Shown one piece after another: positions 27,771 through 35,785 of a DNA stretch of 36,101 nt (within the stretch, counting starts at the first letter, position 1; every line of letters begins with the position of its first letter). The position numbers and the translations under genes are program-made. Source of the DNA: an uncultured Spirochaetaceae bacterium. Lineage in GTDB: Bacteria; Spirochaetota; Spirochaetia; Sphaerochaetales; Sphaerochaetaceae. The DNA lies in assembly GCA_944388955.1 (NCBI GenBank), contig CALXKJ010000019.1, positions 1-36,101 on the forward strand, read 5' to 3'. A model generated the notes under the pieces. It did no database searches and was not told the DNA's origin. It saw nothing but the letters and a program-made list of their open reading frames with translations.

Positions 27771-28037
27771 TCATCGATAGATACCTCTTCGATGCCCTAT
27801 ATCAACAGCAACAATCACAAGTTCTTCATCCATGATATCCACAATAAGCCTGTAGTCACCTATACGATATCTCCATAGCCCCTTCAGATTGCCTGCAAGC
27901 GCCTTACCTTGGCGTCGTGGATTATCTGTATTCTCAAGATTCTTCAAGATCCAACGGGAGATTATGCGTTGGGTGACAAAATCCAGCTTGTGGAACTTCT
28001 TCTTGAATCCCTCGCTTACTTTTATTGAGTAGCTCAT
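27771..28037 (-). CDS. relE: RelE-family mRNA-interferase toxin
   Basis: An 88-aa toxin of the RelE/ParE superfamily with LKGLWRYRIGDYRLIVDI and a basic C-terminus (GHRRGIYR). RelE toxins cleave mRNA in the ribosomal A site; the Arg and Tyr residues of the YRIGDYR motif and the C-terminal Arg/Tyr pair are those expected for catalysis. It is encoded downstream of its antitoxin with an ATGA overlap, so translation is coupled. Length is usual for the family. Confidence 0.9.
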   Translation of the reverse strand: MSYSIKVSEGFKKKFHKLDFVTQRIISRWILKNLENTDNPRRQGKALAGNLKGLWRYRIGDYRLIVDIMDEELVIVAVDIGHRRGIYR

Positions 28038-28273
28038 AAGGTTTCCTTATTGATTCCACATTCTTTCATAAGATCGTCAAAGCTGCTGAGGCGCAGTGTT
28101 CCGGACTTCTTCTGTGCTAGATAATCCTCCGAGACTTTCATGTCATACTCATCTTCCAGTTTCTCAAATGTGAGTCTCTTAATAAGGGCAGACATATTGC
28201 AGTTATAGACTCTTGCAGCATCCTCGAGGACTGCTTTCTCCTCATCACTGACACGAAGACTGATTATACTCAT
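28034..28273 (-). CDS. relB: RelB-type (DUF6290-like ribbon-helix-helix) antitoxin
   Basis: The 79-aa protein starts at ATG 28273, which has AAGGAG seven bases upstream; reading further upstream would run through the promoter. MSIISLRVSDEEKAVLEDAA is a ribbon-helix-helix DNA-binding start, followed by NMSALIKRLTFEKLEDEYD and a toxin-wrapping C-terminal part. It should repress its own operon and neutralise the RelE protein encoded 4 bp overlapped downstream. The dyad in the promoter fits that autoregulation. Confidence 0.88.
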   Translation of the reverse strand: MSIISLRVSDEEKAVLEDAARVYNCNMSALIKRLTFEKLEDEYDMKVSEDYLAQKKSGTLRLSSFDDLMKECGINKETL

Positions 28274-28292
28274 TTCAATACTCCTTAGATTC

Positions 28293-28321
28293 AATATAGC
28301 ATACATTTGTATTACAAGCAA
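28293..28321 (-). promoter_or_regulatory. relBE promoter with overlapping operator dyad
   Basis: On the minus strand TTGCTT (28316-28321), 17-bp spacer and TATATT (28293-28298). The perfect dyad TTGTA-N-TACAA (28307-28317) lies in the spacer and overlaps the -35 box, a suitable place for repression by the RelB ribbon-helix-helix protein. Confidence 0.65.
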
Positions 28322-28408
28322 ATATGCTTATCTTGCATCTTTATATTTGATAGGGAGTTCTGCTGCCGTATACACAAGCTCAGTTTCTTTGTTATCTGAC
28401 ACTGTGAC

Positions 28409-29188
28409 TTACTCCCTGGCTTTCTCTTCCCAACCTTCAATAAAGGATTGGACTTCTTCTTCCAGAGCTTTCTTTTCGGGAAGATAGAGAACATATTCTG
28501 AAGCGAAGATTCTATTCTCAAGTCCTCCGAGAACATACTCAATCTTTGCAGATGGCTTATCAGTACAGAGAATGATACCGATTGGATCGTTATCATCGGG
28601 ATCATTGACTTCTGCTTTGTAATAGTTGAGATACATATTAAGCTGACCTACGGCAGCAGGGAGCGGTTTTCTTGTCTTCAGCTCAATTATCACATAGGTC
28701 CTGAGAATCTTGTTGTAGAAGACCATATCAGCATAGTAATGCTCATTATCGAACGTGATTCTCTGCTGTCTTCCTACGAACATGAATCCTTTTCCAAGCT
28801 CAAGAAGGAATTTCTCAATATGATTGATAAGAGCATCCTCAAGATCAGCTTCCAGCACAGGTTTGTTCTCAGGTAGCCCCATGAACTCAAATACATAAGG
28901 ATCTTTCAGAATATCTTCAGGTTTCTCTATTTCCTGTCCTTTCTCGGCAAGTCTTTTTACTTCTTCCTTGTTCTCTTTTCCACGGGAGAGCAGAAGACGC
29001 TCATATAGCGATGAATCAAGCTGCCGTTTCAGCTCTCTTACAGACCACTTTGAAGCAATGCATTCCTCCTCATAGAAACTGCGTTTATTATCATCAGAGA
29101 TTGTCAGAAGTTCACAGTAATGTGACCAGCTCAATTTAACAGACTGTGTCTGTTGATTTGGATAGGATAGGAACAGACGGCGCGTCAA
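28409..29188 (-). pseudogene. YhcG/DUF1016 PD-(D/E)XK nuclease, N-terminally truncated
   Basis: About 254 residues of a YhcG-type protein (usually near 340-350 aa) remain. Present are LSWSHYCELL, WSVRELKRQL and the C-terminal nuclease domain with YADMVFYNK, VIIELKTRK (Asp and ExK) and VGQLNMYLNYY. The N-terminal DUF1016 part, about 90 residues, is gone: the gene begins at the right end of the tnpB-type remnant. The final TTGAC of that element gives a TTG start in frame (first residues MTRRLFLSYPN), with GAAGG three bases upstream. So the nuclease half could still be made. The C-terminus is intact. Function of the family is uncertain, often tied to defence loci. Confidence 0.85.
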
Positions 29189-29334
29189 CGACCTTCAGGC
29201 AAGCCTGAAGGCTTGGACGTGAGTGTTTTCTCCACAGGCTCCGTTTCCGGTCTGCCTGTGGCACTCCATCCATGCGGCTGATTGACTGCAGCCTGCCCGT
29301 GTTTCTGGACCCGGGTGATATAGTTGTCGCGGAT
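29184..29334 (-). mobile_element. Solo right end of a tnpB-type element
   Basis: 143 of 151 bases match 787-937, by hand alignment. It carries the tnpB 3' end (frame open through KTLTSKPSGLPEGR) and the 9-bp right-end palindrome (29192-29211), but no left end and no other tnpB sequence. The homology starts abruptly within the abiEi remnant and stops at the yhcG remnant. Confidence 0.88.
29184..29334 (-). ncRNA. Putative orphan omega RNA
   Basis: All three hairpins predicted for the 787-937 copy are kept: the 8-bp stem with its GAAA tetraloop hairpin and the right-end stem are unchanged, and the CCCG/CGGG stem is unchanged while five of the eight differences fall in its loop. The guide position would begin at 29183 reading leftward (GCGCCGTCTG...), which is yhcG sequence. 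A promoter for such an RNA is not evident; it might be read from the abiEi side. Confidence 0.45.
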
Positions 29335-29904
29335 TTAATAGTTTCGTAAGAAAATCTAGGTTCGTTGAGTGATACAAAGGTGAGACAAATTGTATATCAT
29401 CTTTGTTAAGTGACCAGAAATCTTCTTCATCTATTCTCAGGTCTTCGAAAAGAAGATATTCAAACTCCTTCATGTTCTTAGCAGGGGATATGGTGTATAG
29501 CTTGTCGCATAATGCTTTTTCAGGAGCGGCAATATGATAAGAGTATTCACCGTCGGTTTTTGCTATGACACCATATGGGAAAGCTGCTTTCGGGATATCT
29601 CGAAACGTATAAGTCCCGAATCGGTTTATGAAGGTTTTTGTCTTTCTCTTGCCGAATGTTGCTGATGTATATACATATACAGCTTCTGGAATCAGGTTGT
29701 AGATGTATAAAGCATAATCAAAAGACAGGTATGATGGATTATATATCTGTATGGCAAGGTATGAAGGATTGACTTCAGGATCATCCTCATAGAGACCTCT
29801 GGTGATCTTGATGAGCTTACCTTCCCTTGTAAGTCTCATGATCTTGCCTTTCACATCTGAATATGGTTTGTATTTGTTTTCTAACTCTGCGGTAGAATTA
29901 TCAT
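29335..29904 (-). pseudogene. AbiEi-type (type IV toxin-antitoxin) antitoxin, broken at both ends
   Basis: The reading frame has the winged-helix start of AbiEi-like proteins (ENKYKPYSDVKGKI, LTREGKLIKITRGLYE) and the following antitoxin core (NPSYLSFDYALYIYNLIPEA, YHIAAPEKALCDKLY). It ends after LTKLLN where the tnpB right-end remnant begins; the frame then runs 44 codons through that remnant and stops at 29195. At the 5' end the only ATG with a good ribosome-binding site (TGGAG, ATG at 29904) is out of frame by two bases with the protein, which suggests a frameshift. The cognate AbiEii nucleotidyltransferase gene is missing. Internal GTG (29854) could give a shortened product. Confidence 0.75.
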
Positions 29905-29980
29905 ATTTACTCCAGTTAGTTGTATATTCTCCACTTATTGGAGCAAATCAAGGATTTTGATTAATTTCTACTGAATTCAT

Positions 29981-30006
29981 TTTCTCTGAAATCAAATTCA
30001 GAAAGA
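29981..30006. repeat. 26-bp direct repeat with internal palindrome, copy B
   Basis: Identical to 26295-26320. The sequence before it also resembles the promoter of copy A but the -10 box is not kept (TTCATT in place of TATAAT). It lies in the 244-bp gap between the abiEi remnant and the Fic gene, so it may be a leftover of a lost ATPase gene's promoter. Confidence 0.7.
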
Positions 30007-30034
30007 TGGAGAATTACTTGTGTTTCACTTCACA

Positions 30035-30065
30035 TTGTTTGTGCAGATATGCACTCTAGTAGAAT
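30035..30065 (+). promoter_or_regulatory. Candidate promoter of the Fic gene with spacer palindrome
   Basis: TTGTTT (30035-30040) and TAGAAT (30060-30065) with a rather long 19-bp spacer. The spacer contains the dyad GTGCA-GATA-TGCAC (30041-30054), which could be an operator. Consensus-based guess. Confidence 0.4.
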
Positions 30066-30092
30066 GGTTTGTCCCAATCAACAGTGTTGTAA

Positions 30093-30123
30093 TCTCCATC
30101 ATTTTATGGTTAAATGATGGAGA
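30093..30123. repeat. Perfect 12-bp inverted repeat in the Fic gene leader
   Basis: TCTCCATCATTT (30093-30104) and AAATGATGGAGA (30112-30123) are exact inverted copies around a 7-nt loop, ending 14 bp before the AGGAG of the Fic gene. It could be a dimeric repressor site or an RNA hairpin affecting translation. There is no T-run, so a terminator is unlikely. Confidence 0.8.
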
Positions 30124-30148
30124 TATAGTATGAATGAAGGAGATTTGC

Positions 30149-31195
30149 ATGAGAAGATTCGATTATGTGGAAACCTCAAAGAAACTACTTACACCGGAAA
30201 TTGTCCAGATGCTGACCTCTCTTCATGAACATAAGGGACGGCAGGATTTATTTCTGGAAGCTCATATAGATGACTTGAAAACACTTCTGGATGTGGCAAT
30301 GATTCAAAGTACCGGAGCCTCGAACAGAATAGAAGGTATCTTCTCTACGGATAAACGTCTGGAAGAGCTTGTTAAGCAGAACGCTGAACCTCGTAATCGC
30401 TCTGAACAGGAGATTGCGGGATATAGGGAAGTTCTAGCGACAATTCACGACAGTTATGAATATATAACACCACGTCCAAATGTCATTCTGCAGCTGCATA
30501 AGGAGCTATATTCCTATTCAGATGCGGGCACTGGCGGTGTTTATAAGAATTCAGATAATCTCATTGCTGAAATGGATGCGGAAGGCAAGCAGAGGGTGAG
30601 ATTCGTGCCTGTTCCAGCTTGGCAGGCTGCAGAAGCTATGGATGAGATGTGCTTCAGCTTCAATGAAGAATGGAATGCTGGCAAGATAGATAAGCTGCTT
30701 CTGATTCCTATGTTTATTTTGGATTTCCTATGCATTCATCCTTTTTCTGATGGTAATGGACGTATGAGCCGCCTTTTGACATTGCTGCTTTACTATAAGG
30801 CAGGTTTCATAGTTGGAAAGTACATTAGTATCGAAATGCTTATTGAAAAGAGCAAAGAAACATATTATGAAGCATTGCAGTCAAGTTCTTTTGGATGGCA
30901 TGATGGTGAAAACAACTATGAGCCATTTGTAAAATATTATCTTGGAGTTGTTTTAAAAGCATATAATGAGTTTGAATCTCGGGTTGAGTATCTAAGATAC
31001 AAAGGCCTCTCCAAACCGGATCGGATCAAGGCTGTGATCGGACAGAATGTTGGGAAAATTACAAAGAAGGAGATTATGGCTCTCTGTCCCGATATAAGCA
31101 GGGTGACTGTGGAGAGAACCCTTACGGAGCTGGTAAAGAGCGGATATATCGTAAAAGTCGGAGCAGGGCCATCTACAGGGTATATAATTCCTTGA
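30149..31195 (+). CDS. Fic-family AMP transferase with winged-helix C-terminus
   Basis: A 348-aa class II Fic protein. The N-terminal Fic_N part holds the inhibitory helix motif SNRIEGI (S-x-x-x-E-G type), which blocks ATP binding until released. The catalytic loop is HPFSDGNGRMSR, a full match to HPFx(D/E)GNGRxxR, so it should AMPylate or otherwise modify a target. The last 70 residues look like a winged helix (ITKKEIMALCPDISRVTVER). The start at 30149 follows AGGAG by six bases; ATG at 30134 would contain that site. It stands alone, convergent with the LPP20-like gene pair, and closes the accessory island. Confidence 0.9.
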   Translation: MRRFDYVETSKKLLTPEIVQMLTSLHEHKGRQDLFLEAHIDDLKTLLDVAMIQSTGASNRIEGIFSTDKRLEELVKQNAEPRNRSEQEIAGYREVLATIHDSYEYITPRPNVILQLHKELYSYSDAGTGGVYKNSDNLIAEMDAEGKQRVRFVPVPAWQAAEAMDEMCFSFNEEWNAGKIDKLLLIPMFILDFLCIHPFSDGNGRMSRLLTLLLYYKAGFIVGKYISIEMLIEKSKETYYEALQSSSFGWHDGENNYEPFVKYYLGVVLKAYNEFESRVEYLRYKGLSKPDRIKAVIGQNVGKITKKEIMALCPDISRVTVERTLTELVKSGYIVKVGAGPSTGYIIP

Positions 31196-31239: not shown

Positions 31240-33447
31240 CTATAGCAATGCCATTCCCACTCCTATGGAGCCTCCGATAACAAAGCTTTTCTCAACAAGT
31301 CCTAAATCAATGCCTGCATGCATGTAGAATGAGTCGAAGTCGATGAAGATGCCAGCATCGCACATCATATAGAAAGAGAAATCAGGTTTTTGCAATACCA
31401 GGTCGAGGAATCCGCCTTCTATAGGTGTTCTTCCTGAGAAACCGAGTTTTGTGCCCAGAGTGATTGCGGCTTCAGTCGAGAAGGGGAAGAACACGTCAAG
31501 ATCTGCTGTGAGCATACCTCCAGCGCGGAGAGAGTAGGTAGCTTTATCTTTGAAATCCCCACTGCCAAAAAGTGAGCCTGTCAGGCCAATCGAAGCTGCG
31601 GCAGTGCTTTCCCCGAAATGGAATCGCACAAGCGGAACGTTTATATCAAGCATGTTATATGCCACTCCCTTCATTGTGGAGACTATTCTGTAATTGAGTC
31701 CAATGCCGAATACGGGCGGCTGGAATTCAGCAAGCTGTGAGCGCTTTGCTTCCTTTTCCTGCTTTCTGAAATCCGCTGCAATCCTGGCTTCCTCTGCTTT
31801 TATTTCTTCCTGTTTTGCCTGTTCTGCCGCGTTTTTCTTCATTTCATTGAAATTGCGCAATGTGTAACTGTCGACGCGGCTTTTTATTTCCCTGATGCGG
31901 TTCGAGGGGTAGCCCATGCTCATTGGATCCATGAGCTCGCTTTCGAGGCTTAAATCGCTGAAATCGACTTTCGAAGGGAATGATATAGTGGCTGTCTGCT
32001 TCTCTCTTGAAAAATACTTGACTGTGCCGTCGCTTTTGTTGATTACGCTGTAATCAAGGAGCGTGAATTCGTAATTGCTTGTATCTGCATATGTCTTTAT
32101 CGAGTATGAAAGCCTTACGGAGATGAATGCTGTAGGATACTCTCTCAGCATCTGATCCCAGTATGCTATTTCAGTATTGTAGTTCACCCAGTTGGATGCT
32201 GTCACATCCACGCCAAGCCAATATGACAGTGGTATGCTGAAATGGAATATGACAGGTTTTCCTGCAATGAGAAGCGTTGTCTCTCCATCCCATTGAAGGG
32301 TCTCCAGATTGAAAGCTTCCACTTTGACTGAAGCAAGCACGTTGCTTGATGTGTCGACTGTATAGGTAGCGCTGTTTATCTTGTCTATGCACTCTGTTGC
32401 GCTATCTATGATTGATGAGAAGGACTCAAGCTGTTCTTCGTAGGCTGCGTTGGTATCTTTCGTATATTCATTCTCGAGCCTTGATATCTCATCTTTCGCG
32501 CTTACCATACGCATTTCCCGCGCACCTTCAGGATCCGACATCTCAAAAGGCCGCAAAGGCTCGTTTATCGCATCGTTATAGATTTTCTCACCATCGGCGC
32601 TGAATTTCACATCGATATCCGTGATGATTTTCTGTGCTGATACTTTCGCTTCGGCAAACGCTTTCTTATAGGCTTCAAGTTCAAGGATATACTCTGCTCC
32701 AGATTCTCTGGTTGAATCTGAATAGCTGTCAGAGATTATTCCGTACCCCTGATGATACGCTTCAAGAAGCGCTTCATTGATTTCCTCGTCATAGAAGCCT
32801 GAAAGCTCCGCGATAAGATTCTCGATTCTCCTGGCTTCAGCCGAGCCCGCGTTGCTTACGTTATTGCCAAGCGCTTTGCTCACTGTCTCATCCTGACGGA
32901 GCGTGTTGAGCCTGTCTGTCAGAAGCTCTGTGTATTCGTTGATTGATGTCTCGTAGCTCATCGGCAGGGAAGGGGCTTTGTAGCTAGGTTTCAGCTCTCT
33001 CATGATGAATTCATCTGTCCTTTCATCAAGAAGCTCGCTTCTGAGACGCTTGAATGTATTGAGGTCATCAGCCTCCAGAAGTGAAGCATATAGATCATTT
33101 ATACGTTTTACACGCTCGTTGATCCTTGCTTCGTAATCCTTCGCGGCTTTTGATGGTATGATGACTTCAGCTGTCCATGTGCCATCCTTATTCTTCTTCG
33201 CCTTACCATTCTCAAGGGAGAGGAGGATGATGTCCGATGATGAGCCTGCTATGGAGCTCATCGCCTCGTCCTGTGTGTTTAATTCAGAATAGGAAGAGTA
33301 TGAGATATAGGAGCTGAGATTCTCTCTTGCATTGATATAAGCCTCCTTCTCTGTTGCTCCGATTCCTTCAGCTTTCATATCTGCGGCAGATAGCTCTGTG
33401 ATGAGAATCAGCGACAGAATGAGAAGAATAGCTTTCCTCAATCCCAT
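31240..33447 (-). CDS. Exported LPP20-like protein with helical middle and C-terminal barrel-like domain
   Basis: A 735-aa protein starting at ATG 33447 (GGAGG six bases upstream). It has a signal peptide (residues 1-22, ending LSAA, no lipobox Cys). The N-terminal region (GIGATEKEAYINARENL, then GTWTAEVIIP) resembles the LPP20 / flagellar-assembly-T fold. A long helical, Glu/Lys-rich part covers about 110-370. A beta-rich domain near 380-535 has FNLETLQWDGE. A short charged helix precedes about 160 C-terminal residues of short amphipathic strands (GIGLNYRIV, AAASIGLTGSLFG, SIGVGMALL) that look like a small outer-membrane barrel. I know no function. It is second in an operon with a paralogue 64 bp upstream. 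Confidence 0.65.
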   Translation of the reverse strand: MGLRKAILLILSLILITELSAADMKAEGIGATEKEAYINARENLSSYISYSSYSELNTQDEAMSSIAGSSSDIILLSLENGKAKKNKDGTWTAEVIIPSKAAKDYEARINERVKRINDLYASLLEADDLNTFKRLRSELLDERTDEFIMRELKPSYKAPSLPMSYETSINEYTELLTDRLNTLRQDETVSKALGNNVSNAGSAEARRIENLIAELSGFYDEEINEALLEAYHQGYGIISDSYSDSTRESGAEYILELEAYKKAFAEAKVSAQKIITDIDVKFSADGEKIYNDAINEPLRPFEMSDPEGAREMRMVSAKDEISRLENEYTKDTNAAYEEQLESFSSIIDSATECIDKINSATYTVDTSSNVLASVKVEAFNLETLQWDGETTLLIAGKPVIFHFSIPLSYWLGVDVTASNWVNYNTEIAYWDQMLREYPTAFISVRLSYSIKTYADTSNYEFTLLDYSVINKSDGTVKYFSREKQTATISFPSKVDFSDLSLESELMDPMSMGYPSNRIREIKSRVDSYTLRNFNEMKKNAAEQAKQEEIKAEEARIAADFRKQEKEAKRSQLAEFQPPVFGIGLNYRIVSTMKGVAYNMLDINVPLVRFHFGESTAAASIGLTGSLFGSGDFKDKATYSLRAGGMLTADLDVFFPFSTEAAITLGTKLGFSGRTPIEGGFLDLVLQKPDFSFYMMCDAGIFIDFDSFYMHAGIDLGLVEKSFVIGGSIGVGMALL

Positions 33448-33511
33448 AATAGACCTCCCTTGCCCTGGATACTGAAAGTCTATTTGCAAAGGAGGTTTAA
33501 ATCAATGAATA

Positions 33512-35785
33512 TTACATAAGGACGCCGATTCCAGCATACGCTCCGCCATAGAAAGTGCCATGCATGTAGGCAGCGTTTATGCCTATTGATAATGTCAGGC
33601 TGGAATCAAATATATGATAGTATCCTGCATGTACCATCGCTGTAAGCTTTGTCCAGATTGGTGCTTTCTCTGTAATAGAGCCGCAGAATCCGAAGTGGAC
33701 AGCAGCCTCAAGGGCGCTTTTGTCGCTTAGAGGGATGTATTTGACAATGTACATCGTTCCTATGAGTGCAGAATCCCAATCAGGGACAAAGAATCCAAAG
33801 CCGAATGACAATCCGAGATGGAAGCCAAGGAAGCCCTGTGCCATGACGCCTTTTGTCATAAATGCAGTGAACCATGTGTCATCCGTGAAAGATTTCATTT
33901 CTGTAATGCCTAAAAGATCAAGGCTCCCGGTAGAGCCAAGGGAGAACTGTGAGGTTTCGGCTTTTTTCTTCTCCCTGCGCTCTGCTTTTTCAATTGAGGC
34001 TTGTAGCTCAGCCTCTGCTTTCTCTGCCGCTTCCTTCTTTGCCTTTTCTTCGCGAGCGGCTTTTACAGCAGCTTGCTCTGCATCGTAGTTCTCGCGGAAG
34101 ACATTGGTTATGACACGGATCCTCTCTATCTCTTCCATAGGATAATCTGGATTGTTTTCATCAATCAGCTCGCTTTCGACGATGACATCGCTGAAGTCGG
34201 CTTCTGTGTCATATGTAAGATAACCTGTTGTATCAACATCAGCGGAGTGGACAACGCTCATATCACTTGTTCTCATCAGATCATAGTGAGAGAACTCCAC
34301 AAGATATGTCTTTGCATCCGAATATGCCCTGATTGTGAAATCTATGTTCAGTGAGTAGATATCAGGGTTGGCGATAAACGTGTCAGAAAGCTCCTGAATC
34401 TGGTCAAGGTACGGTATGTAGTTGTGGTTTTCACCTGTGTCGATTCCCGTCCAGGCTTCGAATGGTATGACAAAAGGCAGCGTTACAGTGTTTTCACCTA
34501 TTGTAAGACGTGCCTCTCCTGTCCACTCAAGAGTCTTGAGATTGAATGATGTTATTTCAGTTGCAGCAGCTTCATTTGGTGTCCTGATTGAAAATGATTC
34601 CTGATTTATCGCTCTAATCGCGTCTGTGCCTTGCTCTGCCAGTGCCTCGAAGCTTTTGAGTGCCGTGCTGTATATTCTTGTAGCGTCGGAAGAGAATGCT
34701 GCTTTCTGCTCAAGGACTTTGCTCCTCGCGTTGTCATTCCTGGCTTTCAGCGCGATAGCCTGCGGTTTTCCATTCTCATCGAGCTCGAATGACATATATG
34801 GCCTTGAGAGTTCTTCTTCGTAGATTGCCATTGTCTTCTCTTCATAGTCCTTGTCGAGCTTCTCGAGAGCAGCATCAAGTCTCGCTTTCGATTCAATGAA
34901 GGCAATCTTCGTCGATTCAACATTCCTTACCATCGATGATGCAATATCGTCAGTGTTCTCGATGATGATTAAATCGAGTCTGCTGTAGATATCCTGCAGC
35001 TCTTTCTGTGTTGTCTCGCTCAGGCGCTTGTTGCTCTCATCAATCTCAGCTTTCAGCTGACGGTCTCGCTCACTGCGCTCCCTTCTATTCTCTTCCATGC
35101 GCTTCTCGATTTCAGCCATGTCGGCCATAATCTGTGCCCTGGCTGTGTCATCGCCTGAGTCAAGCTGAAGAGCAAGCGCCGCGTATCGTGTCTCATCGGC
35201 GTTGCGGGAACTGCGGAGATAGTTCTCGTACATGATTTCCACATCCCTTGATGATGTGGGAATCGCAGTTACCGAGTTTCCTTTCTCCGGGTTGAGCAGG
35301 GTAATGACAGCTCTGTATGTCTCATATTCCTCGACAAGGGGCTTGAGGCGATGATAATCATTGCTTTCGATTGAGCTTGTCCTGGCAGCGGAACTTGAAT
35401 TGTAAAGACTTATAATCCTGGATGCGTTGTTTTCAGCGGCGGTTATGTAGCTATCTATCCTGCTTTCTGGAATCGTTATTGCTGCGCTCCAGCTTCCATC
35501 GCTATTTCTTGAAGATGACACGTCACCTCCAAGAATGCTTATGTCAGCAGTCTCGACGCGTCTGAGATCCATTATCTGGGATGCTGATGTGGAGCCATCA
35601 TCGACGCTTCTGAGGCTCATTCTCGATGATGCTGTCATTCTTATAGTGCTTGCAAGCTTCTCTGTGGCATTCTGCCTTGCTTCGGCTTCAGTCTTTCCAA
35701 TACCTGTCTCTGTGATATCATCAGCATATACTGCTGTTAAAAGCAGAATGCAGAGAATGAACATCATTATCTTCCTGATTCTCAT
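33512..35785 (-). CDS. Exported LPP20-like protein, paralogue of the downstream gene
   Basis: A 757-aa protein starting at ATG 35785 (AAGGGG upstream) with a signal peptide ending AVYA. Domain order matches the next gene: LPP20-like start (TGIGKTEAEARQNATEKLAS, then GSWSAAITIP), long coiled-coil-like region about 115-395, beta domain with FNLKTLEWTGE near 413, a Lys/Glu/Ala-rich helix about 570-605, and a C-terminal barrel-like part (LGFHLGLSFGFGFF, AGYYHIF, GAYAGIGVLM). Several motifs are shared between the two (ADFSD and SLESEL/VESEL, FNLxTLxWxGE), but overall divergence is high, so the duplication is old. Function unknown; the two proteins may form a hetero-oligomer in the envelope. No gene or element is visible between 35786 and 35905. 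Confidence 0.65.
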   Translation of the reverse strand: MRIRKIMMFILCILLLTAVYADDITETGIGKTEAEARQNATEKLASTIRMTASSRMSLRSVDDGSTSASQIMDLRRVETADISILGGDVSSSRNSDGSWSAAITIPESRIDSYITAAENNASRIISLYNSSSAARTSSIESNDYHRLKPLVEEYETYRAVITLLNPEKGNSVTAIPTSSRDVEIMYENYLRSSRNADETRYAALALQLDSGDDTARAQIMADMAEIEKRMEENRRERSERDRQLKAEIDESNKRLSETTQKELQDIYSRLDLIIIENTDDIASSMVRNVESTKIAFIESKARLDAALEKLDKDYEEKTMAIYEEELSRPYMSFELDENGKPQAIALKARNDNARSKVLEQKAAFSSDATRIYSTALKSFEALAEQGTDAIRAINQESFSIRTPNEAAATEITSFNLKTLEWTGEARLTIGENTVTLPFVIPFEAWTGIDTGENHNYIPYLDQIQELSDTFIANPDIYSLNIDFTIRAYSDAKTYLVEFSHYDLMRTSDMSVVHSADVDTTGYLTYDTEADFSDVIVESELIDENNPDYPMEEIERIRVITNVFRENYDAEQAAVKAAREEKAKKEAAEKAEAELQASIEKAERREKKKAETSQFSLGSTGSLDLLGITEMKSFTDDTWFTAFMTKGVMAQGFLGFHLGLSFGFGFFVPDWDSALIGTMYIVKYIPLSDKSALEAAVHFGFCGSITEKAPIWTKLTAMVHAGYYHIFDSSLTLSIGINAAYMHGTFYGGAYAGIGVLM

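Follow-up and report, generated by a model that had tools for sequence, protein, structure and literature searches.

The known Sphaerochaetaceae are round cells in which several penicillin-binding proteins are missing, which raises the question of what holds an envelope of this type together. Two tandem genes from an uncultured Spirochaetaceae bacterium (assembly GCA_944388955.1, contig CALXKJ010000019.1) bear on it. They lie at the right end of the window, by which we mean the whole stretch of 36,101 nucleotides that was analysed, and encode, on the minus strand, the 757-residue protein P0001 (33512..35785) and the 735-residue protein P0002 (31240..33447). The original prediction described both as exported proteins with an LPP20-like start, a long helical region and a barrel-like end, which could tether or organise the spirochaete envelope. 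Our favoured reading, to which we give a probability of about 0.45, is that P0001 and P0002 are outer-membrane-anchored periplasmic stalks that cooperate with LPP20 lipoproteins in an optional scaffold. It builds on the computed domain order, barrel fold, gene neighbourhood, co-occurrence, and presence or absence at a fixed site. What is new is that a stalk-plus-barrel protein has a core without a named domain family and lies in a gene block that, unexpectedly, is present in some genomes and absent from others.

The two genes were delimited by open reading frame and start codon. The coding frame of P0001 (33515-35785) opens with ATG at 35785, with the stop codon ending at 33512, and that of P0002 (31243-33447) opens with ATG at 33447, with the stop ending at 31240; the longer, mechanically listed frames start at upstream TTG codons, and the ATG starts were used. 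The gap between the genes is 64 bases. A full-length BLASTP alignment has 193 identical columns out of 788 (24%, expectation value (E) 2e-42), and P0001 and P0002 are full-length paralogues, old ones as had been proposed. That they are kept side by side, as first suggested, is not supported: no orthologous copy of the exact pair was found, although other tandem pairs occur on contig C3 of the same genome and at locus L086. Each protein starts with a signal-peptide-like stretch (residues ~1-22 in P0001, 35720..35785), which, as seen by eye, has no lipobox cysteine. The cysteines are at positions 12 and 701 in P0001 and 353 and 696 in P0002, and by eye neither protein has the lipobox cysteine of an LPP20 lipoprotein. 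No Pfam or NCBIfam family is matched above the cut-off by either protein, and scans with the same two databases found no enzymatic domain and no known wall-binding domain, including SLH, in the pair. Promoter and terminator scans stayed at the level of shuffled sequence (6 found against a mean of 6.7, and 5 against 4.5, respectively).

AlphaFold2 models of the two proteins have the same domain order. The P0001 model, built with eight relatives (mean predicted local distance difference test score, pLDDT, 73.8; predicted template modelling score, pTM, 0.41), comprises a beta-alpha-beta-beta unit at residues 23-106, helices up to residue 394, seven strands at 397-524, a helix at 550-606 and eight strands at 619-756. 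The P0002 model (mean pLDDT 65.6, pTM 0.40) has the same architecture, with a poorly modelled N-terminal domain whose first strand is absent from the model. In P0001 the helical region, or rod, spans residues 131-394 (34604..35395) and includes helices 179-209, 216-269, 279-326 and 343-394; the beta domain, residues 395-530 (34196..34603), carries the sequence FNLKTLEWTGE, which in P0002 reads FNLETLQWDGE (motif FNLxTLxWxGE). The modelled charged helix that follows is 57 residues long (550-606, 33968..34138), with 45% charged residues over positions 561-600, and its counterpart in P0002 (515-570) is where a Pfam OmpH match (E 0.38) falls. The shared anatomy of helical region, motif-bearing beta domain, charged helix and barrel is in this way confirmed for each protein.

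The C-terminal region of P0001 (residues 619-757, 33515..33931) is predicted to form an eight-strand barrel of the OmpA/NspA type. A Foldseek search against solved structures returned OprF (E 1.9e-4, the best match), NspA (2.0e-4) and OmpX (5.6e-4), and VIA gave Z 14.0 to NspA, with a root-mean-square deviation (rmsd) of 3.0 over 139 residues. The corresponding region of P0002 (residues 581-735, 31243..31707) was modelled with seven clear strands (601-733) and short ones at 581-591. For this barrel VIA gave Z 13.1 to the Legionella 'porin III' (4.0 Å over 153 residues) and Z 12.6 to both OmpA (4.2 Å over 154) and NspA (3.6 Å over 147); the best Foldseek match reached only E 1.3e-2. The predicted assignment to this fold is thus firm for P0001 and weaker for P0002. 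No Pfam barrel family is matched by either protein at E<=10, and OMP_b-brl is matched by one of 16 family members (E 0.0027). Confident fold matches were obtained for the barrels only, and the structure searches in effect probed this part. The whole-family profile found only matches of E>=0.64 among solved structures, largely to helical proteins, and P0001 alone found one weak match (E 0.15). VIA matches on the helical part (e.g. VIP3, Z 8.0, rmsd >23 Å) were set aside as chance. Models and fold matches together support the proposed joining of a helical rod to an outer-membrane-type barrel, and a barrel was found in both models.

Classical type V autotransporters have a 12-strand barrel, and BspA repeats and the FGE-sulfatase domain are fold types found in bacterial surface proteins. 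A C-terminal barrel joined to a long N-terminal part, as found here, would also suit surface display, in which the barrel carries the N-terminal part across the outer membrane in an autotransporter-like manner and the rod is an external adhesin or competition protein. Strong sequence divergence and patchy presence likewise resemble those of surface proteins, and in more distant relatives the core is followed by BspA repeats or by an FGE-sulfatase domain. However, the P0001 model has eight strands and not the 12 of an autotransporter translocator, and the turns between the predicted strands are short (2-7 residues in P0001, 2-13 in P0002), as suits an anchor more than a large surface for ligand binding. 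It is also the barrel that diverges more: in seven hand-chosen close pairs it is 18-52% conserved, against 45-89% for the N-terminal domain, rod and beta domain, and over all 210 pairs its mean identity is 18%, against 33, 26 and 29%, respectively. Lower conservation of the barrel is expected if the periplasmic parts do the specific work. The genetic link to LPP20 lipoproteins described below would also speak against surface display if these face the periplasm. We consider surface display unlikely.

The N-terminal domain of P0001 (residues 23-130, 35396..35719), of LPP20/SHS2-like type, was modelled as strand 23-30, helix 33-56, strands 88-93 and 99-106 and helix 107-130, i.e. in the order beta-alpha-beta-beta-alpha, with residues 52-82 modelled without confidence. 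The LPP20-like start that had been read from the sequence is supported by an intermediate protein and, in P0001, by this modelled order. It does not amount to Pfam membership, since PF02169 is matched by neither P0001 nor P0002 even at E<=10. At E<=1 the same family is matched by 4 of 16 members (best E 0.018). The intermediate, a protein of ~340 residues (L053), matches the N-terminal part of the family profile (E ~5e-9; 1.1e-8 per genome) and passes the LPP20 cut-off (33 vs 25.9 bits) over residues that overlap this match. Among solved structures the N-domain profile has as its top match 4kzs, an LPP20 family protein that we take to be HP1454 (E 0.015; the next match is at 0.58). The domain is probably homologous to LPP20 via the intermediate, which makes it LPP20-like and not a member, and this is the weakest part of the confirmed anatomy. 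LpoB (PF13036) has no match in either protein.

The favoured reading also draws on the surroundings of the family, which we followed with a profile (A1) built from 16 members. In relatives, and on contig C3 (~88-94 kb) of the organism itself, the rod gene recurs with a set of neighbours: A5, an LPP20 lipoprotein of 187-204 residues; A6, an LPP20 lipoprotein of ~210-260 residues; A7, a protein of ~250 residues, whose copy in this genome has no Pfam match; and A8, a lipoprotein of ~440 residues present in several genomes and absent from this one. The organism's own A5 and A6 pass PF02169 with 29.8 and 40.4 bits, and a further neighbour profile, A11, matches Helicobacter pylori Lpp20 (5ok8) at 8.2e-6. 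Within the window's genus, A1 matches 12 of 48 genomes, and 7 of the 24 that are >=90% complete and <=5% contaminated; the genomes are 75-99% complete, which makes absences unequally firm. A large rod protein is present in 11 of the 48, as G013 is matched only by an N-domain protein of ~340 residues and was excluded from this count. In 9 of these 11 the rod gene lies within ~5 kb of an A5 gene (exceptions G028 and G071). A5 matches 13 genomes, including all 12 with an A1 match; two of these matches are weak, that in G071 (E 2.5e-4) and that in G027, the thirteenth genome, where a stop lies inside it. A7 matches 7 of the 48, all among the same 12. The family copy in G071 ends at a contig end. 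That in G007 (C14, 22128-24305) has an in-frame TAG in its N-terminal part, which may reflect a broken gene or faulty assembly; of this copy we used only the open stretch that follows the TAG.

A hypergeometric test of the co-occurrence (P 1.9e-10) ignores relatedness and was replaced by contrasts on a LeuS tree, which comprises 46 of the 48 genomes (G011 and G016 were left out, their LeuS being fragmented or not found; the LeuS of G005 holds a stop, and one open stretch of it was used). Five independent contrasts lie on well-supported branches. In nearly all of 200 random pairings the LPP20 partner changes in the same way as the rod in 5 of 5, and in the remaining pairings in 4 of 5 and never in the opposite direction (sign-test median p 0.0625, the minimum for five). 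The rod trait itself requires 9 changes on the tree. When labels were shuffled the mean was 10.0, and 142 of 500 shuffles came out as low, so that the trait is not clustered by descent.

Part of this scatter is seen at one fixed site, between genes whose translations read as nifJ and gdhA. Rod and LPP20 genes occupy this interval in all five rod-bearing genomes examined (the organism's own, G063, G034, G007 and G068), with a variable gene set from which A7 is absent in G063 and G034. In five of six rod-less genomes the flanks are 92 bases to 2.0 kb apart (G030 92, G023 797, G012 839, G009 932 and G064 1981 bases), compared with 5.5-6.5 kb in the organism's own genome; the sixth, G006, gave one flank only. 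Judged by full-length LeuS (94%), G030 is the nearest relative of the genome studied, and the tree makes it the sister. Exactly the five genes of the run A6-A7-A5-rod-227-residue barrel protein are absent from it, and 92 bases stand in their place. A stand-alone, exported-looking protein of 227 residues (L027, 13518-14201, minus strand) matches the barrel region of the family (profile 589-755), and its gene lies directly upstream of a rod-barrel gene; a similar one occurs in L125. At a second site, before leuS, the organism's own genome has a tandem rod pair (L028 9062-13775, minus strand; contig C3 ~109-113.7 kb), flanked by leuS and transporter genes. In G030 the junction there measures 46 bases, and in the other four genomes examined (G063, G023, G064 and G009) the flanks are 0.1-1.4 kb apart. 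The rods at the nifJ-gdhA site belong to three main clades and four subclades of the family tree. Mis-binning of the organism's own copies in the metagenome-assembled genome is unlikely, because contig C3 carries leuS and other core genes and the window also carries an enolase gene.

A block that is present or absent at one fixed site, where different family clades occur, and a tandem pair that is present or absent at another are also what a mobile defence or competition cassette acting against phages or rivals might look like. The window pair adjoins genes that would suit such a cassette: its neighbours, apart from the contig end, are ParE, DUF6290, DUF1016, AbiEi-like and Fic genes. They belong to a cluster of toxin-antitoxin and defence-type genes at 27771-31195, in which the DUF1016/YhcG nuclease aligns to the best PADLOC model only from position 92, the AbiEi-like protein is identified by PADLOC only and the Fic protein is the SoFic of PADLOC. 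On the other side, PADLOC has no match at E<=0.01 for P0001, P0002, the organism's own A5, A6 and A7 or the A8 protein of L084, and the pair has no detected enzymatic domain. The five genes left of the pair have a G+C content of 0.38-0.43 (0.42-0.43 for the three measured as nuclease, AbiEi-like and Fic), against 0.46-0.47 for P0001 and P0002, and need not share their origin. We regard a defence cassette as improbable.

Across the phylum, 47 of 392 genomes, from 21 of 167 genera, have a whole or partial match to A1; these counts are lower bounds, as two candidates were scored per genome, and in many cases the match covers a single part of the profile. Only in the window's family (f1) did this phylum-wide search find matches over most of it. 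A wider scan with two narrow patterns gave five loci, all spirochaete, from uncultured Spirochaetaceae or Spirochaetales and from Candidatus Aphodenecus, which NCBI lists as Spirochaetales incertae sedis; these relatives presumably belong to the Sphaerochaetaceae. As far as these searches reach, one covering this phylum alone and the other using the two narrow patterns, the family is spirochaete-only, and within the genus only the 12 genomes given above have a match. The organism's own genome holds five large family members; a search of genome contigs with P0002 alone found no relative. Searches of open-access papers yielded no prior description of an LPP20-rod-barrel protein, which does not prove that none exists.

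With separate domain profiles, applied to 17 distant homologues from other genera, the rod and the beta domain were each found in 15 of 17 at E<=0.01, the N-domain in 3 and the barrel in none, while shuffled controls for the rod and beta-domain profiles gave 0 of 340 matches. As the 17 had been picked by whole-profile match, the counts tell which parts are held in common and not how frequent the family is. Rod and beta domain appear to constitute an unnamed core common to spirochaetes, for which Pfam has no family. In 14 more distant relatives, 13 of them from one other family of the class and one from another class according to their kinship codes, Pfam found at E<=0.01 FGE-sulfatase in 4, LpoB in 2 (L063 above the cut-off, L080 below) and BspA LRR_5 in 1; in several others a barrel-like end was seen by eye alone. 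These differing ends suggest that the ends of the core are exchangeable, with an LPP20-like or LpoB-like domain in front and a barrel, FGE-sulfatase domain or BspA repeats behind. FGE-sulfatase ends, which were assigned by eye in L064, L066, L073 and L078 (in L064 also by Pfam), resemble variable C-type-lectin-fold proteins, linked to diversity-generating retroelements. The rod/beta core is also contained in a lipoprotein-like protein of 1613 residues (L122, 12332-17170, minus strand; lipobox by eye), whose gene shares a run with A5, A6, A7 and a 728-residue rod protein. Proteins of ~480 residues from another class of the phylum (L065, L067 and L072) match the family over the N-domain only; their start resembles LPP20 and their end DUF4384, in each case below the cut-off.

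This distribution speaks against the general tether of the spirochaete envelope that had been envisaged: a match is found in only 12 of 48 genus genomes, the trait is scattered on the LeuS tree, and no known wall-binding domain was found. A more specific version would have the rod join the outer membrane to peptidoglycan or the inner membrane and so replace OmpA-type tethers. Its model is found in OmpM of Veillonella and SlpA of Deinococcus, which, like the pair, have a C-terminal outer-membrane barrel, a long periplasmic stalk (a coiled coil in SlpA) and a small N-terminal domain, and OmpM likewise has paralogues in one genome (PMC10628300, PMC9388160). The organism's own genome has no match to the OmpA domain (PF00691; control positive in 5 of 14 genomes), which counts in favour of this version. 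Peptidoglycan peptides in the round relative Bullifex porci indicate that a bindable wall may exist (PMC7738495). On the other hand, neither SLH nor any other known wall-binding domain was found in the pair, 36 of 48 genus genomes have no match, and the absence of a penicillin-binding transpeptidase match (PF00905; control positive in 10 of 14 genomes) from the organism's own genome, which is 95.6% complete so that 4-5% of the sequence may be missing, makes a cross-linked wall doubtful. This absence agrees with the reported lack of penicillin-binding proteins 1a, 2 and C in Sphaerochaeta and Bullifex (PMC7738495). Membership of the OmpM/SlpA group itself was rejected: their barrels are large porins of 16-30 strands (PMC10628300) and their presence is widespread (PMC10628300, PMC9388160), whereas the pair has an LPP20-like N-domain, no detected SLH domain, eight strands and a patchy distribution. 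We judge a wall tether of this kind to be quite unlikely.

OmpA starts with its barrel and ends with its wall-binding domain. P0001 and P0002 share with it an eight-strand barrel of the same fold and a periplasmic part, but their domain order is reversed. The radial oligomers of PopA (PMC12228718) were considered as the same thing and rejected, as PopA has 16 strands; a second, unrelated eight-strand family is named in the same paper.

The N-domain could also point to a FlgT/FlgP-like relative of the flagellar H-ring or basal disk, or to a regulator that acts on wall synthases as LpoB does: its LPP20-type fold would be shared with FlgT and FlgP (PMC12222027), and an LpoB-like N-domain is present in 2 of 14 distant relatives. 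The target machinery was not detected in the organism's own genome, neither PF00905 nor the flagellar rod domain PF00460 (control positive in 4 of 14 genomes), with the reservation that 4-5% of the sequence may be missing and that a single flagellar domain was searched. For this genome the idea is largely refuted, and we consider it very improbable. FlgP and FlgT, which are not known to have a barrel, also differ from the pair in that the flagellar rod domain was not found here; what they would share with it is an SHS2/LPP20-type fold in an envelope protein (PMC12222027).

According to the favoured reading of an outer-membrane-anchored stalk, P0001 and P0002 would be exported by the Sec route and their small eight-strand barrel, with its short turns, would insert in the outer membrane as an anchor. 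Both ends of an eight-strand barrel face the periplasm, so the charged helix, beta domain, rod and LPP20-like N-domain would project into it. There the N-domain would most likely co-assemble with the LPP20 lipoproteins encoded beside family genes, and the resulting scaffold, attached to the outer membrane, may be optional for the cell, being gained or lost together with the lipoproteins. Precedents for such assembly exist: FlgP, a protein of the fold common to FlgP, Lpp20 and FlgT, forms rings (PMC12222027) and interacts with itself, HP1456 and HP1454 (PMC11756786). The operon of HP1454 and HP1456 (Lpp20) in Helicobacter resembles the present arrangement, in that a multi-domain exported LPP20 protein is encoded beside an LPP20 lipoprotein. 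HP1454 has three domains, the first resembling HP1456, and differs from the pair in that no rod or barrel is mentioned in the excerpts of the paper describing it (PMC11756786); the 4kzs chain has 285 residues.

Several observations count against this reading. The pTM of ~0.4 in both models leaves the relative placement of the domains without confidence. Soluble barrels (hoefavidin, retinol-binding protein and PsbO) match P0001 at Z 9-10, below most outer-membrane barrels (Z 12-14 in the top rows), and the fold alone is therefore no proof of membrane insertion. Outer-membrane barrels usually end in a C-terminal phenylalanine, which is found in 7 of 21 members and in neither P0001 nor P0002. In the distant pairs C3_109/C3_111, P0001/P0002 and P0001/G015 the barrel is not the least conserved part. 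By hhalign, the N-domain profile is only weakly similar to LPP20 lipoproteins (probability 13%, P 0.0022). No LPP20 gene adjoins the window pair itself, unlike in relatives, and the LeuS tree is that of one gene, made by a quick method, with 13 of 43 inner branches below 80 support. Ring formation in the FlgP family accompanies an insert after the helix (PMC12222027), and P0001 residues 52-82, near the place of this insert, have a pLDDT <50. A two-hybrid test with the H. pylori proteins showed no binding between HP1454 and HP1456, and loss of HP1456 left bacitracin resistance unchanged (PMC11756786).

A broader version of the scaffold, set in the Sphaerochaetaceae-type cells described at the outset, is possible, if rather doubtful. 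In it the core with exchangeable ends and the LPP20 lipoproteins would form a layer under the outer membrane, an undescribed modular spirochaete system whose gene block is switched at a fixed site and whose rod is replaced by deeply different versions.

At the contig end (35861-36101, plus strand), beyond P0001, shifted frames resemble a broken TnpB-type transposase; they include, by eye, a zinc-ribbon-like CSRCGYEN, a motif of the kind found in TnpB.

Overall, the interpretation first given to the pair is partly supported; it had missed that LPP20 lipoprotein genes neighbour the family, that the ends are modular and that the genes are present in some genomes and absent from others. Together, rod and beta domain would make up a new domain family. 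With its swappable ends, this single periplasmic core shows how various outer modules may be joined to it in spirochaetes. As the stalk and its LPP20 block are present in some species and cleanly missing in close relatives, they offer a direct natural comparison.

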